From Parietichytrium sp. I65-24A (lineage: Eukaryota; Sar; Bigyra; Thraustochytrida; Thraustochytriidae): 64,000 nt of DNA. Positions 1,976 to 31,444 of the stretch are shown here, piece by piece. The position numbers and the translations under genes were made by a program. The notes beneath the pieces were generated by a model. The model was given only the letters and a program-made list of their open reading frames with translations, had not been told where the DNA came from and ran no database searches. The DNA lies in the NCBI GenBank assembly GCA_012862575.1, contig BLSF01000023.1, forward strand, positions 124,001-188,000. Reading direction: 5' to 3'. How positions within the stretch are numbered: the stretch's first letter is position 1; every line of letters begins with the position of its first letter.

Positions 1976-2289
1976 GCCCCCACAGAAAAAACAGAGAGGG
2001 ATATTGTCGTGAGTACTGAGTACAGGCACCGTTTTCTTTGAAAATTGTTTGCTTTTAGTCTTAGCAAAGACTCTTTGAAAGAAGAGCACACTGAGCACTG
2101 CACCAAAGCACGCATTGCAAATTCAACCCTGCACCATACATTTTCTCTCCATCTCCTCACGTGCCGCAGCAGTGCAAGGAAAATAAAAAGGAGGATTTGG
2201 AGCTTCGGCAGATCCCAATTGCAAAGCCTGCACTGGCTTGGCAACAACACGAGGCGGCAAGTGGTCTGACAGTGTTGCAGCAGAAACAA
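1..2289. other. Upstream non-coding region of the BCCT gene, with microsatellites and a possible 5' UTR intron
   Basis: No convincing protein is seen on either strand; the open frames here are short and low-complexity. Simple repeats include GA-rich DNA near 105-137, TTTC units near 947-982, GT near 1143-1153 and a long CT run at about 1943-1973. A strong donor-like GTGAGT at 1235 and a CT-rich tract ending in CCCCCACAG at 1985 could delimit a 5' UTR intron of the downstream transporter gene (inference). Copies of the TGACWGTGA motif lie at 275-283 and 1504-1512, and a TACTGAGTA at 2014-2022. Confidence 0.5.
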
Positions 2290-4683
2290 ATGTTCGAGGA
2301 GAAGACAAGCATGGAGCACCGCGATGAAGACGAGACAATGGACGACCTTGAAGACAAGGGCGCAAAGCTGGCTACCTACGAGCAGGGAAACCAGCGCGAT
2401 CTGACTGCCCCGGTCGTCACGCATGAGGAGCTCTTTCCGATGCGAGAAATCAGCCTGGGACGAGCCGTCAGATTCAATCCTGTGGTGCTGGTCGTCAGTA
2501 TGGCGCTGTTGTGGGGTTTCTCCGCTTGGGTCATCGTCTCGAGCTCAGAAGCCTCTGAGCGCCTGTATGTTTGGAAAAATTGGGTTGCCACATATTTTGG
2601 CTGGACTTACATTGGTGCCGTAAACGTTTGGCTCATCTTCTTTGTCTGGGTGTACTTCAAGTACGGAAACGTCAAGCTTGGAACAGTGGACGAGGAGCCT
2701 GAGTTCTCAAACGCTGCATACTTCATGATGATTTTCTCTGCTGGAATTGGCACAGGTCTCTTCTACTATGGTGTCGGGGAGCCTTTGTACCACGCAACTG
2801 GAACCTACGGAACCAACAGATATGACGCACAGACATACATGAGCGAAGATGAGAAGGATCAGTGGGCAATTAACATCACACTCTTCCACTGGGGTTTCTT
2901 GGGTTGGGTTACTTACTCCCTTCTAGCTGTCGCGATGGGAATCATGGCATACAGACACGGCCTCCCGCTGACTTTCCGATCCACGCTGTACCCAATTCTC
3001 GGCCGCCATGCTTTCGGATGGATTGGTGACATGCTTGACGGCTGCAGTATCATTTGCATCATCTGCGGTGTGGTTTGTGATCTCGGACTTGGTGCCAGCC
3101 AGATTGTCGCTGGTCTGCAGCGCGTGAACATTCTCTCCACTGTGGAGTGCACTGACGACATCACCGAAGACTGCGTCAACACATTCTACGCTCGCACCGG
3201 GACCGTTTGGGTCATCATTGCAATTGCAGCTGTCTCAGCAGTGACTGGAGTGGACCGCGGTATCAAGATTCTCTCTCAGATTGGCTTCATTCTCGGTACG
3301 CTCATTTGGGCAGCTGTATTGCTCTCCGACCGCACCGAGTTCTTGCTCAATCTCCTCGTACAGTCTTGTGGGTTCCACGTTCAGTGGTTCTTTTCCCTTG
3401 GTTGGGCCACTGATGCTTGGGCTCGCATTCCAGATACAGTTGGTAGCGGCCGCTCCACCGACGGGCAGTCCGCTTCTGAGGACTGGATGTCATCGTGGAC
3501 GATCTTTTACTGGGGTTGGTGGATTGCGTGGGCTCCTTTTGTCGGCATGTTTCTTGCACGCATCTCCCGTGGACGTACCATCTCGAGTGTAGTCAACTTC
3601 ACCATGACGGTTCCATTCGGTTACATCATTCTCTGGTACGGTGTGTACGGCGGTGTCGGAATCCGTATGCACCGTCGTGCTGAAGAAATGGCTGCCAACA
3701 ACATCACCGCTCGTACTGACACAGTGTCCGTGTGCTACGATGTTCCTGCCGACTTTGCAGACTCACACATCAGCCCTGTGTGCTTGTACGAAGGATACGC
3801 AGATATCGCCTGGTTTGATGTCATGAGCCAGTACGGAGATATTGCCCAAGCACTGAACGTTCTCAGCGTTATCGCCATGATCATCTACTTTGTTACCAGC
3901 AGTGACTCTGGCTCCCTCGTGGTGGACTCTCTCGTGGCCAACGGCAAGTCCGACCATCTTCCATTTCAGCGTATCATTTGGGCCGCTACTCAAGGAATTC
4001 TTGCCACCGCTCTGCTCAAAGCAGATGGAACCAATGCAGTCTACACATTTCAGTATGCACTTGTCGTAGTGGGACTTCCGTACTCGTTCGTTTTCTGCCT
4101 GGTGTGTGCTTCTCTGTACAAGGTTCTCGCCCAAGACAAGATTTACGTGGAAAATGGAGTGGAGTGGCATTCCGAAGCTCTGCAGGACGTCAACACTCAC
4201 TTCGCTTACCCGATTTACGGAGGACTTCTTGACATTGTCGAGTTCGTGCTCAGCTGTGGATCTCCAAGCAAGACCCGTGGATACCAATTCCTCAGTGCTG
4301 GCAACTTGGTGGAGTTCTTCGTCTCTCTTGTCTGCCCGCCCCTCTCTTACTTTCGAATTGTCAAGCGCATTGAGCGCCCATGGTCCGAAATCATTCTCGG
4401 AACGCTTGCCTGCGCAGGAACTGCTTACAGCACCGTTGGTCTCTTGGTGGCGCGATACACTTCCAGTGACTACTCCTTTTACGGAGTCATCGCAGTGATC
4501 ATGTACTTTTGCTTTGCCCTTATGATCGCAAACTTGAGGTACACCTTCCGCCGCCTTTACAACATCTACCACGCAAACGTTGCAGAGGACTTCTTTTGCG
4601 GCCTCTTGCTTTACCCTCAGGCTCTGGCACAGATGCTTTACCACAGCAGCGTCGTGGGCTCCAGTGCCGTCAAGCAAGAGTAA
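2290..4683 (+). CDS. BCCT-family (betaine/carnitine/choline) transporter
   Basis: A polytopic membrane protein of 797 aa, probably importing glycine betaine, choline, carnitine or DMSP-like solutes by ion coupling at the plasma membrane. About 12 TM segments follow an acidic, charged N-terminal tail of some 60 residues. Diagnostic BCCT elements are visible: the glycine stretch AGIGTGLFYYGVGEPLYH near residues 151-168 (TM3-like unwound helix) and the Trp-rich signature FYWGWWIAWAPFVGMFLA followed by RISRGR near 406-430. Extracellular loops are longer and more Cys-bearing than in bacterial relatives. The start chosen is the first ATG of the open frame; the frame extends 43 codons upstream only through a GTG. 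BCCT proteins are mainly bacterial, so a eukaryotic copy suggests old lateral transfer or a marine osmolyte function; the substrate cannot be read from sequence. Single open exon. Next gene downstream is on the same strand, 330 bp away. Confidence 0.93.
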   Translation: MFEEKTSMEHRDEDETMDDLEDKGAKLATYEQGNQRDLTAPVVTHEELFPMREISLGRAVRFNPVVLVVSMALLWGFSAWVIVSSSEASERLYVWKNWVATYFGWTYIGAVNVWLIFFVWVYFKYGNVKLGTVDEEPEFSNAAYFMMIFSAGIGTGLFYYGVGEPLYHATGTYGTNRYDAQTYMSEDEKDQWAINITLFHWGFLGWVTYSLLAVAMGIMAYRHGLPLTFRSTLYPILGRHAFGWIGDMLDGCSIICIICGVVCDLGLGASQIVAGLQRVNILSTVECTDDITEDCVNTFYARTGTVWVIIAIAAVSAVTGVDRGIKILSQIGFILGTLIWAAVLLSDRTEFLLNLLVQSCGFHVQWFFSLGWATDAWARIPDTVGSGRSTDGQSASEDWMSSWTIFYWGWWIAWAPFVGMFLARISRGRTISSVVNFTMTVPFGYIILWYGVYGGVGIRMHRRAEEMAANNITARTDTVSVCYDVPADFADSHISPVCLYEGYADIAWFDVMSQYGDIAQALNVLSVIAMIIYFVTSSDSGSLVVDSLVANGKSDHLPFQRIIWAATQGILATALLKADGTNAVYTFQYALVVVGLPYSFVFCLVCASLYKVLAQDKIYVENGVEWHSEALQDVNTHFAYPIYGGLLDIVEFVLSCGSPSKTRGYQFLSAGNLVEFFVSLVCPPLSYFRIVKRIERPWSEIILGTLACAGTAYSTVGLLVARYTSSDYSFYGVIAVIMYFCFALMIANLRYTFRRLYNIYHANVAEDFFCGLLLYPQALAQMLYHSSVVGSSAVKQE

Positions 4684-6105: not shown

Positions 6106-9100
6106 TCACGTGAACATGCTCTCGAGCTCGGACTCTTCCTCCTCTATTTTTTCTTCGCGTTTTGAAAATTTGATCGACTCTAAGCGCTCTTGCTCCAGCT
6201 TGCTCTCCACAAGCTGACTTGCGGTCATTTGTTCCAGCGTTGGCGTGGCTGAGCCAGACATGATAGTTGTTGCGGTTGGGTCAACCTGTTGTTTCAATCT
6301 TTCCATGATGTCGTTTCCAATACCACTGTCTGAAATCTTGCCTGCTTTGTACAACCATTTGGGAACGAAGATCCAAGCAAGTGTGGGCAAGACTGTGAGC
6401 AAAACGACAACCGATCTAAGAAACATTCGCATAGACGGGTTGTTCTCCATCATATGCTCCATTGGAAGCACTATGGAATTCACTTGCAAGAGAGACACTA
6501 TTGCGTTTGCAACGTATTTATGCTCTGAAAATGAAGCTGCAATTCCTTGTGACTGCCAGCATACGTATCCCCCTACAACGAGGAGAATCAAGTGATAGAC
6601 CTGCTGCAACGAACTAAACAAGATGCCTTCACTCTGGCAGGATCCTACGCTTACAAGCGCTTTCCCGTACTCGTCCACCTCCGTGACTTCGCGCACATAT
6701 ATGAAAGGATCCAGAAGAGTCCAGAGAGACATTAGAATAGCTTCAAAAATGCAGAGGCCTGCAATCCAGGCGACAAGCTGTTCATTTGATATCACGGCTT
6801 TGCGATGCCCGAGATGCCTAAAGGTATGTGCAACCCTGTATATTTTCAAAATTAGTGGAGCGAAAGAAAGTTGGAACCCAATTGCCGACAGCCAGGCAAA
6901 GCATAGGCATCCATACGTTGCAGCCTTTGACCCATTGCGATCGTCCACGAGTAAGCCTAAAAGCGAACCGGACATAATCAGTAGACCCACAACGATGGTG
7001 ATTAGGAATTGAATCTGAGACACCAGAACAATGGGATTTCTTCGGTTCACCAATATCCATCCCAGCGTGTATATACTGCTGAGAAAACAGCACACAATTA
7101 TGACAACAACGAACGCCCGCGCTACTGTCGGGTAGCTCAAGTCCTCCTCAGGCTCGATGGTGTCCGTGGGGCGATCAGCACTACCATAGTTGTACACAAT
7201 GGACTCGGGCAGGGTACTCTCTGTGATGTTCGGCCCGTAGGCAAGAAAATTCATTTCAAAAGAAGACGAGTTCACCCAAGCGAGATTGTACAAGGCATGT
7301 ACAACTTGATTCTTGGTCCGGCACCCGCTGCCATCGAAAGACACCGTTCCGGTCCTACCTTCAAATTGTATCCCATCAGAGCTTTGCAGATTGGCCAGAA
7401 ATTCCTTCCCAAAGGTTTCGCCGTCGAGGGGCTGGTCGCTGCTCAGAGAACAGGCACCGAGGCCAATTGCCATCACATTATCGTATAAATATCCGGCGTC
7501 GCTTTGGATGTGAGGAAGGTACGCCAGCGAACCATGAAGCGCAGTGCCGACCCTCGCAGGTACTACAAGATCGACGCACTGCTCTCGATCCCACATAGGG
7601 AAAATCCACAACGTTCCTTCTCGAAGGATACCGCCATTCGCCTGGGCACCGTCTTTCGCTCTAGTGAGGAACGAAACGAGCTCTGGCTGAGTGCAATCAA
7701 ACAGGACAACATGAATGTTGAGGCTGCTTTGCTCTGCATCTAAAACTGCAGCATAATAGCCGTCGGAACTGTTAGTCACGAGGGTTTCTTTAGGAATTAA
7801 CCCAATTTCATTTTTGCAGAGTTCTGCCATGTAGTGCGAAGAGCTGATGTGCTCAGCTTGTGAGCTGGAAAAGATGTTAAAGTACGTGTAGCCCATATTG
7901 CTCAAGAGCAAGCACATTCCCTCTGAAACTTCATGGAAGGACGGTGACGATCTAAATATACCGGGATATGCAGCGGAGTCATCGAATTCGGCTGCTCGAT
8001 TCAATACACCAATTGGCAGGGCTCCGGCGGAGAGAGTAGCTAGTGCTCGAGCAGAATTATACCCGCGAACACCTACAATTCCGTCCAGGCGCTTCACTGT
8101 GTTGCTCGACCAAATTGGGAGGATATCAGTGACAATGCTCGACACAGTCCCGTCGACGACTGTTCCAGCCAATGAAAGGAGTTTGTTACATCCCGAGCTC
8201 TTTGCGAGTGCGTTAAAGTCAACGATTGCGCTCGAAATTGCACTCGAGAGTGTCTCGCCCGCGTTCTCGGGCAACACCGCCGCAATGAAGACGTCATCTA
8301 GTGTGTCGCAACGACACGCCACGAATGGGGTAGAAACTACACATACCTCTGACTGAGAGCACTCCAAGGATGAGGCACAAAACGCGCAGCAGGAATGCCC
8401 GATTTCGCCATACTCATGTGTGCCAATGTCGCACACCTGCAAAAAGTTGGACACCTCTCCGTATCCTCCCCCGTTGGCCATAAAGCCAAGTTCCTCCTCA
8501 AGGACAAAACCCTCGGCTTGAGTGTAATATGCCACTGGCAACGTTGAGTACTTTGTAAAAGCTTCAGCGTCCGAGTTCAGAATAATATTTGAGAATCTAA
8601 TCTTGGCTGACTCAGTCGGTCTCAATCTAGACTCTTCTTGAAACTGAATGTCACCTGTGATTCCAGCATATTTTGGCTTTAGAAAGTTTTGCCAAAGTCG
8701 TCTCATGCCAGAAAAGTACCTTTCGCGAGGTGAACTCGTGGACAATGCCCGCGTGATCCACATCGACACAAATCGAATCGTATCGTGCATAAGCGCTCCT
8801 TGCGATCTTGCAAAATGAGAGTGCAAGAAGTCATACGAAGCGATCAAATCCGCAAATGGCTGATAAAGCCCGGTCGGAACGATAGCATCGTACTTTGAAA
8901 AACTACTGGAGTGGTTGTAAATATACTTGACAACCTCTTCAAACTTTGTCAAGTTGATATCATGACGCTCGACCACAATCGAGCCCTGAAGTTCAGGGTA
9001 CAGCGTTTCGTTGCGTCCAATTGCCTGAAAAACCGTTCTGTCATTGAAAATCCAACGGGAACCCTCGCCAAGAATGCCGCTTTTGCTCGCTAATGGAAAC

Positions 9101-10305
9101 AAAGCACGTGCGAGCTCATCGCCAGTACCAACTACGTAACTGACCCCGATTCCTGGGGAGCTCAGAAACGCGAAGAACGCTTGGTATACTGGGTCGCTTT
9201 CGTCAAAATCACTAGTCACGGGGAAATAGATCTGTCTCCACGCTACAGTAGAGCAGTTCAGCAACTGAGAAACAAACTGCGCATTATCAAGCGATTCTCT
9301 CTGAGGTACGAGAAGGTTTGCTTTGGTGTAGCTAAAGTGGTCTCCGATCAAATTGCAGACGGCTTCGGCAACAATATCGTCTGACACGCTCGTTCCCAAA
9401 AGAACCGGAAAGAGGTCGCCGTTAGCAAGGTCATGGCCACTCGCCCCAGAAGTTAGTACCGGTGTGTTGTATATGTACTCAATCCCATGCGTAGATATTG
9501 CAGAAGTCATGCTTCGATGGCCAACTGCTGCCCAATCGTAATGAGTCAAGAGGTCGTACAAGTGATCCGCAGAAGCAGAGGCCCCGCGGTCATTGACTGC
9601 ATCCCGGATGTAAACTTTAAATTCTTTGGGTGCATTAGCATCCTGAAGGTGCATTTCAAGACCGGCAAAGCCGAGTAGAAGGGCCGCCTGCAGATCATCA
9701 ACCTCTGAAGTAGAGTCCGACAGCGTGGAGATGACAACAAATCCAGCCTGAACGACCTCGCAATAAGCGTCGTCCCCGTCGACAACACACGCCTCATCTG
9801 TTCTGCAATAGGTGTCAAAATAATTGTAGCAACAGGAGTGAGACGCATCGCCTGGCAAGTAGCGTCCCGAGGCGCATCCACAGGCGCAGGAGCCCTTGTA
9901 ATAATAGCAAGTCTTGCAAGAATCGGCATCGTTCCAATTGCTTCCCAGCGTTTTAGTGCATAGACTCGTTGCGTTGCAGCACGAAGGAGCGAGGGCGTTT
10001 AACACATTGTCGTCATCAATGTAACACATCTCACCTTCTGTTCCAATTGACTTTTCGCTGAATGCGCTTCTTGTTTCAGCTGCGGGATCGTCAGCCGCAC
10101 CATCGATCGAGAGCCGCGACTCCCATCCTTGCAAGATCGAGTCACGGCGATTGCGCAGAACGTTTAAAGTCCGGCTGCTTTGTGTGTTTCTGTGCTCCAG
10201 GTCGGGCGAGAAAAGTGCATTGCATTCGTCTGCTTGAACTGACGTCGCGAATGCAAAGCAAAGCAGCAGTTGCGCCAAGACGCACGACGCCATCTCCAAC
10301 CTCAT
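6106..10305 (-). CDS. Class C G-protein coupled receptor with two tandem Venus-flytrap domains
   Basis: A 1,399-aa receptor-like membrane protein. An N-terminal signal peptide (cleavage expected after TSVQA, before DECNALF) leads into a Cys-rich segment (about residues 94-183) and a first periplasmic-binding-protein-like (ANF receptor/VFT) module (about 188-600). A second short Cys-rich linker (624-667) and a second VFT module (about 670-1023) follow. The seven-TM class C core is at about 1061-1320, including RNPIVLVSQIQFL and the C-terminal helix ending near FVPKWLYK. An 80-residue cytosolic tail closes with an acidic, Glu-rich end. The start is the ATG at 10305, or the one at 10293 that begins the signal peptide directly. 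Class C receptors normally have one VFT, so the tandem arrangement is unusual. The ligand is unknown; amino acids or related metabolites are typical for the family. It is transcribed away from the other class C receptor at 13454, sharing a 3.1-kb intergenic region. Confidence 0.88.
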   Translation of the reverse strand: MRLEMASCVLAQLLLCFAFATSVQADECNALFSPDLEHRNTQSSRTLNVLRNRRDSILQGWESRLSIDGAADDPAAETRSAFSEKSIGTEGEMCYIDDDNVLNALAPSCCNATSLCTKTLGSNWNDADSCKTCYYYKGSCACGCASGRYLPGDASHSCCYNYFDTYCRTDEACVVDGDDAYCEVVQAGFVVISTLSDSTSEVDDLQAALLLGFAGLEMHLQDANAPKEFKVYIRDAVNDRGASASADHLYDLLTHYDWAAVGHRSMTSAISTHGIEYIYNTPVLTSGASGHDLANGDLFPVLLGTSVSDDIVAEAVCNLIGDHFSYTKANLLVPQRESLDNAQFVSQLLNCSTVAWRQIYFPVTSDFDESDPVYQAFFAFLSSPGIGVSYVVGTGDELARALFPLASKSGILGEGSRWIFNDRTVFQAIGRNETLYPELQGSIVVERHDINLTKFEEVVKYIYNHSSSFSKYDAIVPTGLYQPFADLIASYDFLHSHFARSQGALMHDTIRFVSMWITRALSTSSPRERYFSGMRRLWQNFLKPKYAGITGDIQFQEESRLRPTESAKIRFSNIILNSDAEAFTKYSTLPVAYYTQAEGFVLEEELGFMANGGGYGEVSNFLQVCDIGTHEYGEIGHSCCAFCASSLECSQSEVCVVSTPFVACRCDTLDDVFIAAVLPENAGETLSSAISSAIVDFNALAKSSGCNKLLSLAGTVVDGTVSSIVTDILPIWSSNTVKRLDGIVGVRGYNSARALATLSAGALPIGVLNRAAEFDDSAAYPGIFRSSPSFHEVSEGMCLLLSNMGYTYFNIFSSSQAEHISSSHYMAELCKNEIGLIPKETLVTNSSDGYYAAVLDAEQSSLNIHVVLFDCTQPELVSFLTRAKDGAQANGGILREGTLWIFPMWDREQCVDLVVPARVGTALHGSLAYLPHIQSDAGYLYDNVMAIGLGACSLSSDQPLDGETFGKEFLANLQSSDGIQFEGRTGTVSFDGSGCRTKNQVVHALYNLAWVNSSSFEMNFLAYGPNITESTLPESIVYNYGSADRPTDTIEPEEDLSYPTVARAFVVVIIVCCFLSSIYTLGWILVNRRNPIVLVSQIQFLITIVVGLLIMSGSLLGLLVDDRNGSKAATYGCLCFAWLSAIGFQLSFAPLILKIYRVAHTFRHLGHRKAVISNEQLVAWIAGLCIFEAILMSLWTLLDPFIYVREVTEVDEYGKALVSVGSCQSEGILFSSLQQVYHLILLVVGGYVCWQSQGIAASFSEHKYVANAIVSLLQVNSIVLPMEHMMENNPSMRMFLRSVVVLLTVLPTLAWIFVPKWLYKAGKISDSGIGNDIMERLKQQVDPTATTIMSGSATPTLEQMTASQLVESKLEQERLESIKFSKREEKIEEEESELESMFT

Positions 10306-10444
10306 GCCACCATCCGCTGCAAGTTGACCGAGGTCTGTCCGCGTGTTTGACTGCCTGCGTGTCGCTGCGCCACTCTCACTTTGTGCCGCAGCGCTGTTGC
10401 TGGTGCTGCAAAGAGTGTGAGTACCGGTAGAGATATTACTTGAT

Positions 10445-10453
10445 TCACAGTCA
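10445..10453. promoter_or_regulatory. TGACWGTGA motif 140 bp upstream of the tandem-VFT receptor
   Basis: An exact copy (TCACAGTCA on the plus strand) lies 140 bp before the minus-strand start codon at 10305. It is one of about 20 exact copies in the window, all in non-coding DNA. Function as a promoter element is inferred from recurrence and position only. Confidence 0.35.
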
Positions 10454-12073
10454 AACCAAGTCACCTAACTTACTCTTCTCACCCCCGATTCGAGATTACG
10501 GTTAGTACATTACTTTGCACAAGCTTTTTATGCTGACAGAGAAAACCATACCTTGGAGAGGTTCAATGGAGTTGTTTGGACCGGCTACCTATGATGAAAA
10601 GCGAAGAACAGACCAACAGTCGCAGTGACTTGGTGAACTTCTTCTTGAGAGGAGTGAGTGAAATGAATGAGACTCCTCTCATTGTTTGTTCCCCTCCATG
10701 ATGAGCCTCAGACTCTTATCATGATCAACAAAAGACCGAAATTTCAGGCTTTCCAGCATTAACCACACCTGAAGTAATCACCGACTGTACAACAAGTTCA
10801 TGAAGAAGGCGAAGTCGCCAAGCGTCCTACCGTTCTGCGTTGTCTTTCCCATTGTTAGCTCCATCCTCTTCGGTTGCACTCTCAACAACGCTCAGTGAAC
10901 AAGAAGAAGGCTCCGCAAAAACAATCACAAAACGAAACGATGATGGAGAAATACCACACAGCTTCGTACTAGTACCGGTAAATCTGCGCGCCGCCCCCTC
11001 GCCACGGCGCTTACGCGGTATTAATTATTTCAACGGTCACATTTCGGACAGTTTTGGTCGAGCCTAGCCTAGTCTAGCCTAATTAGACAAGATGAGATGA
11101 GCTGCAAGTTATATCTGTGATGTTGAGCAACCACAGAGGCAGGGAAGGGGGGATCCACTTTACTCAAACTGCTTTACTGCTTCACGCGCCTGTTAACCTC
11201 GAGCCGTTTCACCTTTCACAAAAAAATGCCGCTGTGATGGTGGGAAGGAAGCTGACCTGAACCTGGCCCTGAAAGTCTGGAATCAGAATCAGAATTTAGA
11301 ATCAGAATTTAGAACCTTTTTTTGACAGTGCCGCATGCATACGTCCTTGTCGAGCGAACCGTGACTACGGAGTGTTGAGGGCCTTCGCGAGCACTTACGA
11401 CGACTCCGCCATACCAGGTGCGTTGTTGTGGAGCTCGAGGAGGACGTTACGAGCTACTTCGCATCGTTAAAACCACTTTGGCTAAGCGTCGCCAGAGGAA
11501 TCCTTAATCATGGTTACCCAACTCTTGACCAATCGCCGAAATCCCCAATTCTGAGGTGCATAATTACTAGTAGGCTCCGGGTTCACCATCACTTTACTAG
11601 AAAAGACATTGGGATGATTTAGAACTAAGAGTCAGTTAACATCAGTCAACCCTTTGAGTTTCGCTATCGTCATCCTTCCACACGTTAAATCAATACGCTT
11701 CTACAGTATTCAGCAGTATAGCCTACACGACTGGAACAGATAATGCCCGTCGATGATCGACCTAAGTAATTCAGCTAACCATTCCTATGTTACGCATTTG
11801 TATTAAGCTGCGCTAGCGAATATCATAAGCCCACAAAACACATATGGCCAGCCAGGCGTTCGTTGTAGTAGTGGTTGTCAGCAGTAAGACATATGAATCC
11901 CACACAAGAAGCTTGCAGGACTCCTACGGAAACGCAACTAGTAGGAGCAAGAAAAAGTTCCAAAACGCGGGAAAAATGGTCAGTGTGCAAAATGGACATA
12001 GAGTTTCTGTTGGGAACAAGCTATGCGAGTTTCGGACCCACTGATTGCCTTTGAAGGCACGATCATGATTGAT

Positions 12074-12237: not shown

Positions 12238-13453
12238 ATGAACATCGACATTGGCATTCACTGTCGATTGAAAACAACATGCAGTGTCTGTTGCGGACAG
12301 GGAGCTCAACTTCAACATCTCGAATGCGTCAGGATTTGGAACTCCAAGGATGAAAGTGTAAGGATTGCCTTGGTGGGAGGTGAGAGTGGTTAGTGGCTGC
12401 AAATGAAGGGAAGCAAGCAACCACCCACCTCATACAAGTCTCCTGCGCCTTGCCAAGACAGACCACGGATTCACACGCACATCAGTCGTCTGCAACTCTG
12501 CAAAACTTCTATGTCCATCAATTAACTTTCGTTTAAAATATAAACAACCACAGCATTTCCACCGATCAAAACAGTCAAAATATCAACAGCGCGATGAAGA
12601 GTCCTGCCTGTGACGAGTCACGGGTTGAATAATCGCGCCGTTTTAAAATGTAGGAGCTGTGCCATAGTATCGGAGGGGTAGAAATCGCATGTGTTGCTCG
12701 CATCGGGGCTCGGGAGACTCGAGAGAGAAAGAGTGTGTACGTGTGTGCATCGAGAGGAGAAGAGACTGTTCATTCTGTGCCAGCGAGCGTTATGAGCGGA
12801 CTCGGAAAATGAAAGGTGTAAAATGATGTGAGCTGTAGTTAAGTTACCCCGAGTTTGTGTTTCACGACGACACCAACGCGATCGACCCTTCCAAATTGCT
12901 TTCTATTATTAGTATTAGAAAGTTGGCAGCGAGTTTGTGAAAGCGTGGTTGACTGCTTTTTGACTCGCACACAAGAACAACTGGTTGAGTTGGTTGGAGA
13001 GGATGAGAGAAGCAGCAAACGCTTGTGTTACCATGGTTGTCACTCACAGCTCACGGTAATTGCACACCCAAAAATGCTTTTTGGAATTGGAAAGAATTAG
13101 TTCCAGGAGTGCAAGAAGTGAAGGCAGTGAAGGTTGTAGACGCAAGATTAACCGCGAGATAGTGGCCAACGCGCAAGGTCCTTGCGCAAAACAACGCACT
13201 CACAAGATCTGGGCCGACACAGCAGCGTCACAGTCCAGTTCTCACCACCGCTAGGTGCAACATTAGTTCGGGGAAGAGCCAGCTATTGTGTCCTGTGCGA
13301 GTACTCACGGTCAGTACCGATAGTACCGCTGCTCTTCTCAAATGCGACTCACGGAAGACAGCGTCTGTTTCTAAATTGAATCGTAACTCGGTCTGTGCGA
13401 GCAATCGACAAATTCCTGGGTCAACCGCTTGGCGTTCGGAGCGTTTTTGCAGC

Positions 13454-16400
13454 ATGCGTGCGACTCTTGCATCAGGGTGCCTCTTGGCTGCAGCTGCAGC
13501 TGCGGCCGGCCTTGTCGATGGCGCTTGCACGGTCTTCCAAATATCTCTTCAGAATGTTGCCGAGAGCACAGACTTTACTGCGAGCCTCGACGGCGCGGAG
13601 TTCTCCGGGACGCCAACGATCAAGCTCACGAACGTGGAGAGCGCGACTACCTACGAGAATACAAGTGTTCAAACGCTGACGTCTGAAACCTTGCAGTTTT
13701 CTAGCTCTGGATTGCCCGTGGGGCACTATACCGTCTCAATTTACGATGGCGTGACTGAGTTGTGCTCGCTCCAAAACGACTTGCTCTATGTGCATGCCGC
13801 TCTTGACATCACCAATGTTACTGGTTCGAACGGCGAAGTCACCTTCAACAATGAGCTTCAATCTGAGATCCTCATAATCGGCGACAACATTTTCTACACG
13901 CCGGGCTCTGACATCCTCATTCGTTTCGTCACGGAAGAAGGAACGAAATCGATCGCCTCCGGGGCCATCTCAATACAGAGCGGTGAAGGTCTGGCAATTC
14001 GAGGAAACATTCCTCTCATCGCGGCGCCCTCGTCCTGGTCGAACGATTGCGATTCTACCTCTTGCAATCCTGATTTCTCGGCGCAGCTATCGATCTCTAT
14101 GAATGGTGGTGCAACGTACAGCTTGGATACGTACAACGTCACGTTTACTTACTCCAGCCCCGCAAAAGTAGCCTTCCTGTACTTTGGAAGCGTTGGCGAC
14201 TTTGGCTGGACCTATCAGGTGAACTCGGCTCGCATCCGCCTTGAGTCTCTTTACAATCGAGGTGTAAACGCAAGCACCTACTACGAGAATGTGAATGTCG
14301 ACGACGCCTATGGCTTGATCCAGAGTGAATTATGCGACAAGTTTGACCTTGTAATTGCTGGCTCGATCGAGTACGCAACGGCCGTCAATGAGATCGCGGG
14401 ATCTTGCGGGAAAACGCGTTTCATGATTGCCGGGGGCGAAAAGTTGACCGACAATCCGAATTTGGTCGCGTCTGGATTCGCTAAAATGTATCAGGGCAGA
14501 TATCTTGCTGGCCATCTTGCGGGGCAAGAGCTGGCTAGAAGAGTCGAAGCTGGCGCTTCCGAGGACGCTGCCTGCGTGGGGTACATTGCTGCAATCCCAA
14601 TCCCGGAGGTGATTCGTGGAATCAACGCATTTTTGCTGGGTTGCCAAGATTCCTTTTCTAGCTGCAATGTAAAAGTGGTCTTTACCGGGTCCTTCAATGA
14701 CGCTGACCTGGAGGAGGACTCAGCCAGTTTTTTCTACAATATTCAAAACTGCGCGGTGGTAACTCAACACTCTGACAATATCGAGCCTCAGGAGTACTAT
14801 CGTGATCACGATGGGGCAAGCTTGGGTTACAACTCGGATGCAAGGTTGCTAGTGGGCGACTCAGTGTTGAGCTCAGTCGTGTTGAACTGGACCCCAGTAT
14901 TCAGCTACTACATCGACGCAATTCTCCAGGATAGCTGGGCCTCCGCGGACATGTTTCTGTGGATGGGCATGGACGCTGGCGCAGTGGACATTGCCGACAC
15001 GTTCAGCCCACTCGTTTCCGCGGAAGGCAAGGCGACGGTGATATCGTTGCAAGAAAACCTCGCTAGCTTAGAGGGCGATGATGCTTTTGGTGGCATTTTT
15101 TGTGGCTCTTTAGCTGCCAAATGGTCTGCTCAAAGTTCCAACGGTCTTTGTGGCGGATTCCCGGTGTGGACTGGGAGTGACACACCCGTAGCTTTGCCTT
15201 CGGAGTGGTTTTTCGACAAAACGTCTGGCGTGGCGCTCTCTTCAGGCGATGAGCTCACCAACTCGTCGTGTCTGAGACAAGAAGTCTTGCTTGGTAGCCT
15301 GGGATACAACTTTTTTCTTCAGGGCATTGATGTGGTGGGGGAGACAGAGACAATATACGGGTCAGTCTCTAATGAGGACCCGGCGAATTGCTCCTCAATC
15401 GATCGGCTGTACACTTCGCCAGTGGAATATCCACTTTGTGACGGAACGCAATGGGAATACGAGCGGGAGCTGGAGTGTTCCATAGACGGCACGCTCCTCG
15501 TTTCGTACTCGTGGCGTGGCGAGGAGCGTTGTAGCGAGGAGATGGATGCTGCAGGAAAGTATGCAATCATTGCTGAACTACCAGACTCCATTGCGACGAC
15601 CTGTGATTACGTCCCGTGGGGTTCGAAATACGGTACAGGAGTTGTGGTAATCGTATCTGTCGGGGCACTGCTAAACGGTGTGCTCGTAGCATTTATGCTA
15701 TACTTTCGGAAGCACCCAGCCGTGATGGCAACCCAGCCCTTCCTGGTGATCGTCATGTCTTTTGGTGGAGTTCTGTTGAACCTGAGTACCTTGCTATTCA
15801 TGGGCCTTCCAACTGACGCGTTGTGTATTGCTCGTGTTTGGGGATTTAACATCTCTTTTGACCTCATCTTTGCATTTCTATGGAGCAAGGTTTACCGCGT
15901 CCGCACCTTGTTCATGAGCGCTCTCAAGATGAAAAAGGTGTTGATCAGGAACTCGGACATGGTGAAACTTGCCCTGGGGCTAATTCTCGTGGACATTATC
16001 ATCCTCACCATTTGGACCGTGCACATGCCTCCAGCTGTGAGTGAAGATGACCCGCTGTCACTAAAGTTCCCGGAGTCAGAGACGGGCTCAGCGAACTCGC
16101 TGCAGTGCGTTTCGGCAGAGTATTACTCCTCCGCAACGCTGACTTATAAAGTGATTTTGGTTCTCACGGCTTGCTACCTCGTCATCTCATCCGCCAAGGT
16201 TCCCAAGCAGTATATCGAGCACAAGTACATCATGTTTGCCGCTTACAATACGGCGGTGTTCTCACTTATTGTGCTTGTTCTCACCCTCTCGGTCTCCACT
16301 GACTCGCCAGAAACGCTTTTACTCATCCATGCTGGCGGAGTGGCGCTTGGAACTATTGTCGTCAACGGCACTATTGCAATTCCAAGATTGGGAGTTGCTC

Positions 16401-16567
16401 TCGGCCTGCTCACAGTTCCACTCACGTCGTCCACGGGGACTGGCTCGGAGCAAAGGCATCAAATTCAGACTGCCACCCGCTTCGATACTCACGACTCCGT
16501 TTTCAAGACAGAGGATATGGGAACCGAATTCGAAGATCTGTCCTACTCCGAACACCAGCATTTGTAA
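13454..16567 (+). CDS. Class C GPCR with BMP-lipoprotein (PnrA-like) ligand-binding domain
   Basis: A 1,037-aa receptor-like protein. The Ala-rich signal peptide starts MRATLASGCLLAAA and is expected to be cleaved before ACTVFQ. Two beta-rich, Ig/IPT-like stretches occupy roughly residues 25-235. A BMP/PnrA-type substrate-binding module follows (about 236-620), with the characteristic VAFLYFGSVGDFGWTYQ start, the FDLVIAGS segment and FMIAGGE. A Cys-containing juxtamembrane region precedes the seven-TM class C core (about 727-985) and a Ser/Thr-rich tail. BMP-type ectodomains fused to class C cores are known from the Dictyostelium Grl receptors, whereas animal receptors use ANF-type domains. 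The bacterial BMP relatives bind nucleosides, so a purine nucleoside ligand is a reasonable but unproven guess. The frame extends 56 codons upstream through a TTG; the ATG giving a signal peptide was chosen. Confidence 0.88.
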   Translation: MRATLASGCLLAAAAAAAGLVDGACTVFQISLQNVAESTDFTASLDGAEFSGTPTIKLTNVESATTYENTSVQTLTSETLQFSSSGLPVGHYTVSIYDGVTELCSLQNDLLYVHAALDITNVTGSNGEVTFNNELQSEILIIGDNIFYTPGSDILIRFVTEEGTKSIASGAISIQSGEGLAIRGNIPLIAAPSSWSNDCDSTSCNPDFSAQLSISMNGGATYSLDTYNVTFTYSSPAKVAFLYFGSVGDFGWTYQVNSARIRLESLYNRGVNASTYYENVNVDDAYGLIQSELCDKFDLVIAGSIEYATAVNEIAGSCGKTRFMIAGGEKLTDNPNLVASGFAKMYQGRYLAGHLAGQELARRVEAGASEDAACVGYIAAIPIPEVIRGINAFLLGCQDSFSSCNVKVVFTGSFNDADLEEDSASFFYNIQNCAVVTQHSDNIEPQEYYRDHDGASLGYNSDARLLVGDSVLSSVVLNWTPVFSYYIDAILQDSWASADMFLWMGMDAGAVDIADTFSPLVSAEGKATVISLQENLASLEGDDAFGGIFCGSLAAKWSAQSSNGLCGGFPVWTGSDTPVALPSEWFFDKTSGVALSSGDELTNSSCLRQEVLLGSLGYNFFLQGIDVVGETETIYGSVSNEDPANCSSIDRLYTSPVEYPLCDGTQWEYERELECSIDGTLLVSYSWRGEERCSEEMDAAGKYAIIAELPDSIATTCDYVPWGSKYGTGVVVIVSVGALLNGVLVAFMLYFRKHPAVMATQPFLVIVMSFGGVLLNLSTLLFMGLPTDALCIARVWGFNISFDLIFAFLWSKVYRVRTLFMSALKMKKVLIRNSDMVKLALGLILVDIIILTIWTVHMPPAVSEDDPLSLKFPESETGSANSLQCVSAEYYSSATLTYKVILVLTACYLVISSAKVPKQYIEHKYIMFAAYNTAVFSLIVLVLTLSVSTDSPETLLLIHAGGVALGTIVVNGTIAIPRLGVALGLLTVPLTSSTGTGSEQRHQIQTATRFDTHDSVFKTEDMGTEFEDLSYSEHQHL

Positions 16568-27600: not shown

Positions 27601-28711
27601 GAATGATGCTACTTCTATGTGGACAACTGACTTCTTGTAACGGGGCGTCAGCAATTCGGCGCACTTCAAATCACTAGGAGCGCATAGGAGCTACTACAGA
27701 TGAGAATGCTCTGCACCTCTAACTCTCGGGTACAGGGCTATCTAGAGGACGCCTACTGCACTCGATACATGTTCTGTATCCGTGCCTAATTTGGCTATTC
27801 AAAAGCAGATTCGTTGGCATCTTAGCCAGCAGAGGCCCTGAGGGGACTCTACTTGTCAAAGGCTTATCAACTCTTAGCAGCATTTATGATACACTCCTTC
27901 CCAGTAAGGACTCTTACACGTCCTACCAACCAGTGCATAAGAACTTGATGGGATCTGGTAGGACTCATTGCTGGAAAGTCTTAGTCATCTGTCTTCTTTC
28001 CAAACCGAAAATAATGAATCGCAAAGACTCTGAGGGACAATTGAGTGTCCTACCTGGAATGGTAGCTGCCACTCATCCGGGAAAAGGCACCCTCACAAAC
28101 GGTCCTAATTTTGTGTTAAGGACCGCTACCTTCCTTCACGAAAACCAAAGACGGAAAAGACGCACAACCACCCCGTCTCCCTCACAACAAGAGTCCTATT
28201 TTTGTCCAAGCAATTAGCACCTCTCCTCTAGAACTCTCTGACACTTTGCTTCCTCCCTCCCAACTTTCTCGCTCCACACACAACTCCGTCGCCGTCGTTC
28301 CCTCTCACACACAAGTCCTAAACCTCCGTCACCCACTCCTCCACCCACACTCACACGTCCACAGTACGCGGCGCGGACACCCTAGCTGCGGGGCCCGCTC
28401 TTCCGCGCATCTCTCTCCTTCCCGCGCGCGCCCTCCCTCTCTCCCTCCAGCGCCCTCCTTCCGAGAGAGCGCCACTATCGGAGGCTTGTTCACCCAACCT
28501 TAAACTCCGCCTCTAACTAACCCCGCGTAGTACCTCTTAGGCCTCCGAGCGAGGACGCCTCGCGCGTTACGACGCGCGGCACGCGTACGGCGGGGTCGTA
28601 TCCGTGGCAGAATATTCAGGGAATCAGTGGGGCCAGAAAGTCGCGAGGCAGCGCGTAGGGCGTAGGCGGCTGCGGACTTGAGACGTAGGGGAGATCCTTG
28701 AGATTCCAGAG
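24666..28711. other. Gene-poor region upstream of the CHAT receptor
   Basis: Four kilobases without a supported gene. A 125-codon frame at 25098-25472 ends with YCTQCGHVNPTW, which resembles one half of a TnpB-type zinc ribbon, but only one Cys pair is present and the frame starts at a TTG; it may be debris of the neighbouring element. Internal similarity exists between 24701-24728 and 25201-25223 (CTTGCGTCTTG). Motif copies TGACWGTGA occur at 25733, 26409, 26891 and 27213, and TACTCAGTA at 25697 and 27346. The last 250 bp before 28712 are strongly GC- and CpG-rich. Confidence 0.45.
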
Positions 28712-31444
28712 ATGAAGGTGGCGGCGACGGTGTTGGCGACGATGGCGGCGCACAACGCGAAGGCGCAGGCGCCGTCGATGACGCCGCACGCGCACGCGGC
28801 GAACAGGCTGGGGAAGAACGCTAATGCAAACTGGGTGGCCGCGGCGGCGCCGGGAGTGGCCCCCTCGGCGGAGAGGGACATTGTGCCCGGACAGAGCAAG
28901 GCGGAGACGGCGGCGGAGGAATGGAAGTCCACGGTGACGCTGTCGCCGACGCCGCTGTACTCGGTGTTCTCCAAGATCGACTCGGTGTACGATACGGGCG
29001 ACGAAGGGCAAGAGGACGGAGAGAAGGACTTTTTGCCGAATATTGCGGTGAATAGCAGCTGTATCGTGAGCTCGTCGTCGTCGTCGGCTGGCACGTTTTG
29101 CAGACTGAGTGACGACGAGAATCAAAGGATTGCGACGGCCTCGGAGGAGGACCCGTTTATACTGGTGGACCTGGAGGATCTGTTTTTTGTGGACATTCTG
29201 TCGTTCGCGGTGAATGTGGACTCGGTTTCGTCTCATTCCAAACTGGCGGTGGGCTGCTTAAACTCCACGCACCCGGATTTGATCAAGACGGACGGCTCGC
29301 TGCTGCCGTTCTCCTGGCAAAAGTCGGTCCTGCAAAACAGCGGCAACTACTCGTTCCACGTGCATGCGCCGTGCCAGTTCGTTCGGCTGCAGAGGAAGAG
29401 CCTCGGCCCGTTGGTCATTGCAAACCTCAAGATCTATGGTGCCAACATTAAAAACCGCGATATTATCGGCTGCCTCTCCGGCCACGAAGGTGAGATATGT
29501 TCGGGCCACGGCTCTTGCGCAAATTCCATTTGCAGCTGCGACCTCGGCTTTGCGGGGCCTAAATGCGAAGACTTCTTCCTCTTTGGACAGACCGTAGCAT
29601 CTCTGGTGCAGGCCGGGGGTCTCGTGTCCGTCTTTGTTTACTTGGTATGGTACTATATGCGGGTGATTCGTGTATCGCCAAAGTCCATCGACGCGCCCGA
29701 CGCAAAGTTCTCGTTATTGGAGTGCGAAAAACCAGAGAATGTTCGCCGAGGAATTTCAACCGGCCTCGAGTCAAATCGCGGCTCGGACGACGAGTCCAGC
29801 TCAGACACTCCGGTGAAACTCACACGCGCGATCAGCACTCCCGCCGCTGTTATGAGGCCAGACAGTAATCCAGCAGAGCACAGCGGCTCGTTGCACTTGC
29901 TCTTCGCCTCCCCTCTCGTGATGGCCGTCAACGGGAAGGAATCCTCTGACGAGAACTATCGCCCTATCCAGGCACTCGATATTTGCAAGGAGCACGCTCT
30001 CCTGCAACAGAGCCTCAGCCGCGCGGCTGGCTTTCAGCATGACCACATCCCTGTAACCGTTTCCACTGCAACCATTGACCAATTTCACACCCTCATGACT
30101 CTCGGAAACGTCCGCTGCTTGCACTTTAGCGGACATTGCACTCGCGACTTTTTGGCCTTCGAGGATGCTAGCTCTCAGCTGCATCAGATCAAAATGCCAA
30201 TGCTGAGACGCCTGCTTCGCAGCACTGTCACCTCCAAGTCCCTCCAAACCCTCCGCATGGTCGTGCTCAATGCTTGTAACAGTGAGAACGCTGCTCTGGA
30301 GTTTGTGCTTGCAGGGGTTCCACATGTTATCGCATACAACAAACGCATTCGTGATTCCACCGCCACCACCTTTACTGGTGCATTGTATCTGTCCCTCGCC
30401 TGCGGCCGCACAGTTCGCGACGCCTTTGAGTCTGCCAAGGAGGCAGTGTACTCGAGCCCGTCGTTCGATCAGAACGAGCTGGACGCCTTTCTCCTGCTCC
30501 CCGAGCGCGGCGACCACACCGAGGTTCTTTGGAAGCATTCGAACGCTATTCACGAAAAGGTACCTCGTTGGCCGCTTGAGGATGGCATGCGTGCACTCCC
30601 ACCCCTCGCAGAGGAGTTTATCGGACGACACGTCGATCTCTGGCAAATTCTTGGAGCGCTCACTCAGCGCAACCGACGCGTGATTGTGGTGAACGGCGAG
30701 TCTGGCATCGGAAAGACCCAACTTGTCACAGCCGTCGGACACCACCTTCATCACCGCCGTAGCGCCCAAGTTTGCCGCGATGGTGTGTTTATTGTGAAGA
30801 CCGGGGCCGATGTAAACGCAACTTCTCTCGTGCAGCTGGCGTCTCTTGTCGACGCTGTCTTCAAGTCAATGTGGCCGCTTTTGACAAGTACTTCGGCAAA
30901 AGACGAAGATTCGAACAGCATTTCTGCTTCTAGCAAGGAGATCCGCGATGTAATGATGTCGGAGAACCTTTCTGACTTTATGGATTCTCTCGAGACTGAA
31001 CCAGATGACAGAATTTTGAGACGGAAAATTGTTGCAAAGGTGAACGTCCTGGCCGACGCTCTCGCCAGCCGAAAGGCAAGGTGCCTCCTGGTGCTGGACG
31101 ATGTGCAAGAGTCCTTGGAGCTGGTATCTTTGTTCCTCGCAAAGTTGCTCGAAGAAGTTCCAGATCTCCGAATCTTGATTACCTCTCCAAATGCATACCA
31201 GCTCCCGCTCGACGTGAACCTGCAGCACTACAACCTTGGGCCTCTCACTCCAGGCGACTCGGCGCTTCTCTTGGTTCGCCACTTGAAGCGCAAGATCATG
31301 GTTGGAGACGAAGAAATTAGCTTGCCTCAACTTGCCGAGCACCCGTTCTTGACTGGAACCAATGGCAACCCGTTTCAAATTATTCGAGCTGCTCGTGAGC
31401 TCGCGTGTAAATCCAATACGAATGCTGCTGTATCCCTACCATAA
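28712..31444 (+). CDS. Transmembrane CHAT-protease/STAND-ATPase receptor with discoidin-like and EGF ectodomain
   Basis: A 910-aa single-exon protein. A short Ala-rich N-terminus (signal-like, cut predicted after AKAQA) precedes a disordered acidic stretch and a galactose-binding/discoidin-like beta domain (about 104-245: FILVDLEDLFFVDILSF ... CQFVRLQRK). Next comes an EGF module (about 254-286, CSGHGSCANSICSCDLGFAG), then one TM helix (about 292-316) followed by positive residues. The cytosolic part holds a Ser-rich linker, a CHAT peptidase domain (about 394-600) and a P-loop STAND/NB-ARC-like ATPase (about 633-905). The CHAT catalytic pair is visible: His475 in CLHFSGHC and Cys522 in VVLNACNSE. 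The ATPase has Walker A GESGIGKTQ (662-670), Walker B LLVLDD (792-797) and LITSP. There are no C-terminal TPR/WD repeats, so sensing is probably extracellular. CHAT enzymes are caspase relatives (separase clan); fusion to STAND ATPases is known in immune and cell-death proteins. The role as a cell-surface switch for a protease is inference. Confidence 0.85.
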   Translation: MKVAATVLATMAAHNAKAQAPSMTPHAHAANRLGKNANANWVAAAAPGVAPSAERDIVPGQSKAETAAEEWKSTVTLSPTPLYSVFSKIDSVYDTGDEGQEDGEKDFLPNIAVNSSCIVSSSSSSAGTFCRLSDDENQRIATASEEDPFILVDLEDLFFVDILSFAVNVDSVSSHSKLAVGCLNSTHPDLIKTDGSLLPFSWQKSVLQNSGNYSFHVHAPCQFVRLQRKSLGPLVIANLKIYGANIKNRDIIGCLSGHEGEICSGHGSCANSICSCDLGFAGPKCEDFFLFGQTVASLVQAGGLVSVFVYLVWYYMRVIRVSPKSIDAPDAKFSLLECEKPENVRRGISTGLESNRGSDDESSSDTPVKLTRAISTPAAVMRPDSNPAEHSGSLHLLFASPLVMAVNGKESSDENYRPIQALDICKEHALLQQSLSRAAGFQHDHIPVTVSTATIDQFHTLMTLGNVRCLHFSGHCTRDFLAFEDASSQLHQIKMPMLRRLLRSTVTSKSLQTLRMVVLNACNSENAALEFVLAGVPHVIAYNKRIRDSTATTFTGALYLSLACGRTVRDAFESAKEAVYSSPSFDQNELDAFLLLPERGDHTEVLWKHSNAIHEKVPRWPLEDGMRALPPLAEEFIGRHVDLWQILGALTQRNRRVIVVNGESGIGKTQLVTAVGHHLHHRRSAQVCRDGVFIVKTGADVNATSLVQLASLVDAVFKSMWPLLTSTSAKDEDSNSISASSKEIRDVMMSENLSDFMDSLETEPDDRILRRKIVAKVNVLADALASRKARCLLVLDDVQESLELVSLFLAKLLEEVPDLRILITSPNAYQLPLDVNLQHYNLGPLTPGDSALLLVRHLKRKIMVGDEEISLPQLAEHPFLTGTNGNPFQIIRAARELACKSNTNAAVSLP

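Follow-up and report, generated by a model that had tools for sequence, protein, structure and literature searches.

A single reading frame of Parietichytrium sp. I65-24A joins a predicted outer EGF module to a CHAT protease domain and a STAND-type ATPase core

The stretch of DNA analysed here comprises 64,000 nucleotides of Parietichytrium sp. I65-24A (contig BLSF01000023.1 of assembly GCA_012862575.1, positions 124,001 to 188,000 of the forward strand); it is termed the window, and coordinates are counted from its first letter. At positions 28712..31444 of the plus strand it carries a reading frame that starts with ATG, extends over 910 codons and is free of introns and internal stops, as predicted from the genomic sequence. 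The genome searched has long uninterrupted frames and comprises 42.5 Mb in 172 contigs, and the contig with the window is designated C23. Codon scores derived from ten of the window's other frames were applied to the gene cut into 14 segments. The sense frame tops the three forward frames in all 14 segments, the linker included, and all six frames in 12 of them; at amino acids (aa) 456-520 and 586-650 one antisense frame scores slightly higher. An antisense open reading frame of 322 aa with a TTG start (29801-30769, minus strand) overlaps both of these segments. The sense strand is fixed by the CHAT and ATPase homology described below. The frame of 910 aa is genuine and its inner half securely assigned, and the single unbroken frame named in the original prediction is thus found as described. 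In profile matches and models the encoded protein is composed of an outer part with an EGF module, a candidate transmembrane helix, a CHAT domain and a STAND-type ATPase core, in the order originally proposed, and it ends after the first helical subdomain (HD1) of the ATPase.

The CHAT protease domain covers aa 394-597 (29891..30502, plus strand) according to Pfam, the AlphaFold model, Foldseek and VIA-align. Pfam recognises CHAT (PF12770) at aa 440-586 with an E-value of 3.3e-13 and 50.2 bits (cut-off 24). The catalytic dyad is located at His475 (codon 30134..30136, plus strand) and Cys522 (codon 30275..30277, plus strand), as seen in the sequence and in alignments with the CHAT domains of the same genome and of bacteria, and these are exactly the residues named beforehand. 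The CHAT model superimposes in VIA-align on the SAVED-CHAT filament protein 8tl0 with Z 23.1 (root-mean-square deviation (rmsd) 2.4, 190 residues), and its His and Cys align with those of 8tl0; the CHAT fold is common to both proteins, and in 8tl0 it is joined to a SAVED domain, by entry title. Further matches are DdvA (8rw5; Z 14.4, rmsd 3.1, 167 residues), which is a transmembrane anti-sigma factor by entry title, and separase (5fc2; Z 12.5, rmsd 3.0, 166 residues), so that the model has the caspase/separase fold. By profile, dyad and fold the domain is a CHAT protease, its activity being predicted.

The CHAT domain is followed by a STAND-type ATPase core composed of a nucleotide-binding domain (NBD) and HD1 at aa 630-906 (30599..31429, plus strand; Pfam, model and VIA-align). 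Pfam matches AAA_16 at aa 635-821 (E-value 2.7e-10, 41.5 bits, cut-off 32.6) and also NB-ARC above its cut-off (E-value 1.8e-5, 24.5 bits, cut-off 23.5), and NACHT lies slightly under its own. The sequence contains a Walker A motif, GESGIGKT, at aa 662-669 with Lys668 (30695..30718, plus strand) and a Walker B motif, LLVLDD, at aa 792-797 (31085..31102, plus strand), in agreement with the NB-ARC-like ATPase with intact Walker motifs that had been predicted. In the AlphaFold model of the whole protein, which was built from a 16-row alignment (mean pLDDT 55.2, pTM 0.43), the CHAT domain and the ATPase are folded, most of their ten-residue blocks having a pLDDT of 60-93 and some down to 51, and aa 60-308 lie under 50. 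Foldseek ranks SAVED-CHAT at the top for this model, followed by resistosomes and Apaf-1. The ATPase core resembles those of Apaf-1, CED-4, Dark and the plant resistosomes with Z 12.2-13.5 and rmsd 3.7-4.8 over 208-214 residues, among them CED-4 (3lqq; Z 13.5, rmsd 4.1, 211 residues), NRC4 (9cc8; Z 13.2, rmsd 4.1, 210 residues) and Apaf-1 (3sfz; Z 13.1, rmsd 3.7, 211 residues).

The C-terminus of this core is short. The sequence GNP at aa 885-887 (31364..31372, plus strand), which we take to be a GxP-type motif, is followed by only 23 residues before the stop; a fixed-pattern search for GxP matched one of six proteins only. The model region up to about residue 906 corresponds in VIA-align to CED-4 up to 344-351, Apaf-1 up to 335-337 and NRC4 up to 368-369, positions which presumably mark the end of HD1. 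Since the frame ends after NBD and HD1, neither a winged-helix/MHD lock nor sensor repeats can be accommodated: no winged helix with an MHD-type motif follows HD1 within the frame, and the Pfam scan of the protein, which stops at aa 910, contains no repeat family. The lack of C-terminal sensor repeats was part of the original prediction and holds; the winged helix, which seems to be missing as judged from sequence and model, is an addition to it. In Apaf-1 and NLRs a winged helix, which holds them in the ADP state, is found along with C-terminal sensors. The protein therefore has a STAND/NLR ATPase core and is not classed as a complete STAND/NLR protein.

The outer half begins with a possible weak signal peptide at aa 1-20 (28712..28771, plus strand), proposed from a model helix at aa 2-18 (pLDDT about 67-69) and from insertion energy, and cleavage might occur after AKA or AQA, by inspection only. 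A beta-sandwich-like block delimited in the model, which has no family match, covers aa 104-245 (29021..29446, plus strand) and contains three of the five N-glycosylation sequons, at residues 114, 184 and 212, all before residue 215. It is followed by an EGF module at aa 254-285 (29471..29566, plus strand) with six cysteines between 254 and 285, assigned by Pfam and by matches in the PDB: EGF_2 at aa 256-285 reaches 22.7 bits (cut-off 22.1), and the top PDB matches are EGF modules of selectin, Notch and Reelin with E-values of about 4e-4 to 1e-3, which bears out the EGF assignment first made by eye. A predicted transmembrane helix at aa 294-316 (29591..29659, plus strand), with basic residues after it, leads into a linker at aa 317-393 (29660..29890, plus strand) of low confidence in the AlphaFold model. 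On a Hessa-type scale, no other part of the protein has an insertion energy as low as segment 294-316 (-0.56 kcal/mol); its value is the sole negative one, the runner-up being at +1.61. In a comparison set of 13 proteins, two membrane proteins have minima of -2.12 and -3.29; ten of the 11 without a known transmembrane segment have minima between +0.81 and +3.36, and the eleventh, encoded on contig C35, has -0.11. The placement directly after the EGF module and before basic residues is a stronger argument for a transmembrane helix than the energy, and an EGF module outside with basic residues inside fits a type I topology, as predicted from the sequence.

The outer block had been called discoidin-like. 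Galactose-binding-like jelly rolls include discoidin. From sequence this identity is not supported: Pfam searches with aa 100-249 and 60-249 and a PDB sequence search with aa 100-249 listed nothing at E-values up to 10, with filters that drop most weak matches, and the F5_F8 profile found no match in the whole genome at E-values up to 0.001, a search that may overlook matches that are weak or split by introns. Folded alone as aa 100-293 from the single sequence, the block yields a beta sandwich with a mean pLDDT of 41.7, for which Foldseek gave no match at an E-value below 0.001. The model resembles BcsB (Z 8.9, rmsd 2.5, 101 residues), the ligand-binding domain of EPHA7 (Z 8.2, rmsd 3.3, 118 residues), CBM29 (Z 8.0, rmsd 4.2, 120 residues) and CBM35 (Z 7.9, rmsd 3.0, 106 residues) in VIA-align, and these Z values of 7-9 are near the level that VIA-align calls common for models lacking a clear match. 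This low-confidence model fits a galactose-binding-like jelly roll without proving one.

The genome contains at least four CHAT genes, three of which were found by profile and one, on contig C85, by protein search; the latter then scored above the Pfam CHAT cut-off (28.4 bits, cut-off 24). All four retain the catalytic His and Cys, and the three with an ATPase also retain the P-loop Lys. The paralogue on contig C2 (L008:3567-6248) is an 893-aa frame composed of a CHAT domain, a STAND-type ATPase core, a long linker and an SH2 domain (22.3 bits, cut-off 21). In the paralogue on C48 (L009:42-4956) leucine-rich repeats (LRRs) precede the CHAT-ATPase unit, and a 112-base GT-AG intron within CHAT was inferred from homology. 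Its ATPase also stops soon after the region of the HD1 end, with an end made uncertain by the intron in the gene, and the short ATPase may be a trait common to the C23 and C48 proteins, judging from their sequences. In the C85 paralogue (L010:2255-4813) the His and Cys halves of CHAT are set apart by a long insert with many charged residues, and no ATPase match was obtained. A test of the genome for a PfaA-type synthase yielded 13 partial matches, each under the cut-off. Genome-wide there are 17 AAA_16 and three NB-ARC matches. Three non-CHAT genes among the 17 were inspected, namely ORC5 on C28, a cyclase plus AAA on C7 and ORC4 on C17, as was one of the three NB-ARC matches, an apoptosome-like gene for an NB-ARC-TPR protein on C35 (L034:2264-4972). 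These four inspected proteins were without a CHAT match and were rejected as further receptors of the C23 type. The genes probably have the CHAT-ATPase core in common as a module and differ in the sensor attached to it.

Among 21 bacterial CHAT loci, five of which are closely similar Pseudanabaena loci, the catalytic Cys is present in all and the His in 20, L031 having a Tyr; only the His count is independent, since one of the two search patterns contains the Cys. The P-loop Lys is present in all three bacterial CHAT-NB-ARC-TPR proteins, so that the conservation expected of the catalytic and P-loop residues was seen as far as it was checked. The best bacterial match is such a protein from Aminicenantes (L013), which together with two from Haliscomenobacter (L011 and L012) has the same CHAT-ATPase order at 24-28% identity. 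In these three proteins TPR repeats follow the ATPase, in L013 also a winged helix by inspection, and the Pfam scan found neither EGF nor another known outer domain in them, unlike in the C23 protein. A tree was calculated from 23 CHAT rows (the four of this genome, L011, L012 and 17 of the 21 bacterial loci, with L017, L018, L023 and L030 left out). The CHAT domains of C23, C2 and C48 cluster in it with L013 (support 90/86) on very long branches that the program flagged, and C85 is placed elsewhere, unsupported. Other fusions of bacterial CHAT domains are those to a SIR2-like domain in Stenomitos (L024), to HEAT and TIR in Elainella (L022) and to pentapeptide repeats with several predicted transmembrane segments in Calothrix (L028).

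Elsewhere in the window, two class C G protein-coupled receptor-like genes are located at 6106-10464 (minus strand) and 13286-16567 (plus strand), with different ligand-binding halves (ANF_receptor versus Bmp/PnrA-like), and a BCCT transporter at 2161-4683 (plus strand) carries at its C-terminal end a PLAC8 match that is weak and below the cut-off. Between 20000 and 28000 the G+C content is 0.41-0.45, below most of the window, and long frames are scarce. The 18 neighbour frames scanned, from 41 listed overlapping frames including this gene, contained no pore-former family.

Related architectures are known from cell-death and conflict systems. Apaf-1, CED-4, Dark and the plant resistosomes either act on caspases that are separate proteins or form pores; in the C23 protein, by contrast, the protease is fused in the chain and the protein seems to be membrane-bound. 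As far as the available excerpts of the respective papers go, experiments in P. anserina showed that a fungal TPR-bearing CHAT protease activates a gasdermin, and fungal genes for CHAT-carrying NLRs adjoin gasdermin genes (PMC12881547, PMC10197012, PMC9815663). The C23 protein is like the fungal CHAT-NLRs in that CHAT comes first and the NLR ATPase second, with the protease within the receptor; fungal NLRs often bear ANK, TPR or WD40 repeats according to these excerpts, whereas the C23 protein is repeat-free and has an N-terminal outer part and a candidate transmembrane helix. In bacteria, the same kind of excerpts report that at least 33% of the caspase-carrying proteins of the conflict 'System 4' have transmembrane helices (PMC7159879) and that one NACHT-lectin protein is predicted to be periplasmic (PMC10907252). 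These proteins and DdvA resemble the C23 protein in having caspase-fold or STAND domains at or across the membrane, and with such precedents a membrane-bound CHAT or STAND domain as such is less new. In the literature searched, no description was found of a chain that combines CHAT, a STAND ATPase and an EGF-bearing outer sensor, and a eukaryotic transmembrane CHAT-STAND protein was not recognised, which is no claim of its absence from print.

We consider it nearly an even chance that the gene encodes a type I single-pass receptor in which a cytosolic CHAT cysteine protease is followed by a STAND-type ATPase core and which is activated by clustering. The outer beta sandwich and the EGF module would bind a surface ligand or sugar, and clustering in the membrane would locally concentrate the ATPase cores. 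Cores in the ATP state could then assemble side by side, as in the wheels of CED-4, Apaf-1 and NLRs, and such an assembly would bring the CHAT domains together for activation by proximity, whereupon these would cleave a cytosolic substrate. With the winged helix seemingly missing, control would be expected to occur by membrane clustering and not by release from C-terminal repeat sensors. Death or defence is the most likely output, a non-lethal signalling cleavage being possible, and a role in immunity, allorecognition or cell death is suggested by analogy.

Several observations weigh against this receptor and bear on its alternatives. The fold of the ectodomain is not established, and a search of the same genome with the outer half returned only itself at E-values up to 1. 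The gene is known from genomic sequence alone, the signal peptide is weak (insertion energy +4.1 for aa 1-17), and the transmembrane helix, which is favoured by its lowest energy and its good placement, is not clearly distinguished by its energy from shuffled versions of the protein, since 14 of 100 shuffles reach its insertion energy and 352 of 1000 its value on the GES scale, which is uninformative here. The last two points would suit a soluble or inward-facing protein, in which 294-316 does not span the membrane or translation truly begins at another site, in an upstream exon or at an internal ATG, so that a cytosolic CHAT-ATPase carries an N-terminal extension. The inferred intron of the C48 paralogue indicates that the genome has introns, and a possible splice acceptor lies at 28707-28709, immediately 5' of the ATG; the kilobase scanned also contains weak donors at two sites, 27904 and 28585. 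However, a six-cysteine EGF module needs an oxidising compartment, three of the five sequons lie in the outer part, and 294-316 alone is negative in insertion energy, against positive minima in ten of the 11 comparison proteins without a known transmembrane segment; we regard a soluble protein as improbable. At the other end, the frame contains no GTAAGT or GTGAGT donor, the only two searched for, and a spliced exon could replace the end after the stop. That two genes or a fusion artefact are read as one frame, which the purely genomic origin of the frame and the antisense frame favoured in two of the 14 segments would allow, is very improbable, given that the 910 codons are stop-free, among the forward frames the sense frame scores best in every segment including the linker, and homology of both inner domains fixes the strand. 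The main lines of the original prediction stand, and its discoidin, signal-peptide and transmembrane claims are weaker than first stated, so that it is partly supported.

Other doubts concern the inner domains and the output. ORC/Cdc6 AAA proteins score like Apaf-1 against the ATPase model (Z 12-14), so that the fold alone neither separates a STAND core from an ORC-type AAA domain nor indicates an apoptosome-type assembly; the STAND assignment is favoured because of the NB-ARC match and the pairing of CHAT and ATPase in bacteria. Sensor 1 reads TSPN where the C2 paralogue and both Haliscomenobacter proteins have TSR; the Arg is present in three of four aligned relatives and absent from the C23 protein and also from C48, and without it and without room for a winged helix the switch is not a standard NLR switch. 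In addition, His475 is followed by Cys (GHC) where Gly (GHG) is usual; Ala or Val takes this position in two of the 21 bacterial loci. A degenerate or dominant-negative receptor, with a cut-back ATPase unable to switch and an inactive CHAT domain, would account for these features, but the catalytic and P-loop residues are retained, GHC occurs also in C85, and the short ATPase of C48, its end uncertain, suggests a common trait over decay; such a receptor therefore appears quite improbable. A further alternative is non-lethal signalling, such as adhesion, wall or sugar sensing or a life-cycle change, by a CHAT protease tethered to the membrane, its substrate being a latent regulator and the ATPase an assembly platform only. 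The likeness of the outer-block model to carbohydrate-binding jelly rolls, the CHAT-like domain seen by structure in DdvA and the SH2 signalling module of the C2 paralogue would suit it, as would the gasdermin profile, which found no match in the genome at E-values up to 1, a result that is no proof of absence. With this result and no pore-former match in the neighbourhood, gasdermin is not supported as a partner. The tie of fungal CHAT proteins to gasdermin death, by experiment for the TPR-bearing one and by neighbourhood for the NLRs in the excerpts cited above (PMC12881547, PMC10197012, PMC9815663), argues against such signalling, as does the low confidence of the ectodomain fold. We consider non-lethal signalling unlikely, though worth keeping in mind.

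The clustering-activated receptor can be taken one step further. Animal surface receptors reach caspases via adaptors, and NLRs sense intracellularly. As a possible, if doubtful, extension, the C23 protein may be a ligand-gated 'surface apoptosome', in which one chain provides the ectodomain, the ATPase wheel and the executioner protease and clustering replaces the lock by winged helix and repeats, within a gene set whose sensors are a surface jelly roll with EGF, LRRs or SH2. Judging from the paralogues with LRRs and SH2, the CHAT-ATPase core may serve as a plug-in module for output. If true, a caspase-clan protease, an ATPase core of the apoptosome type and an outward-facing sensor would be united in one chain; this would reduce the pathway to one molecule, and a single gene would suffice to test the activation of a protease by a receptor in protists.

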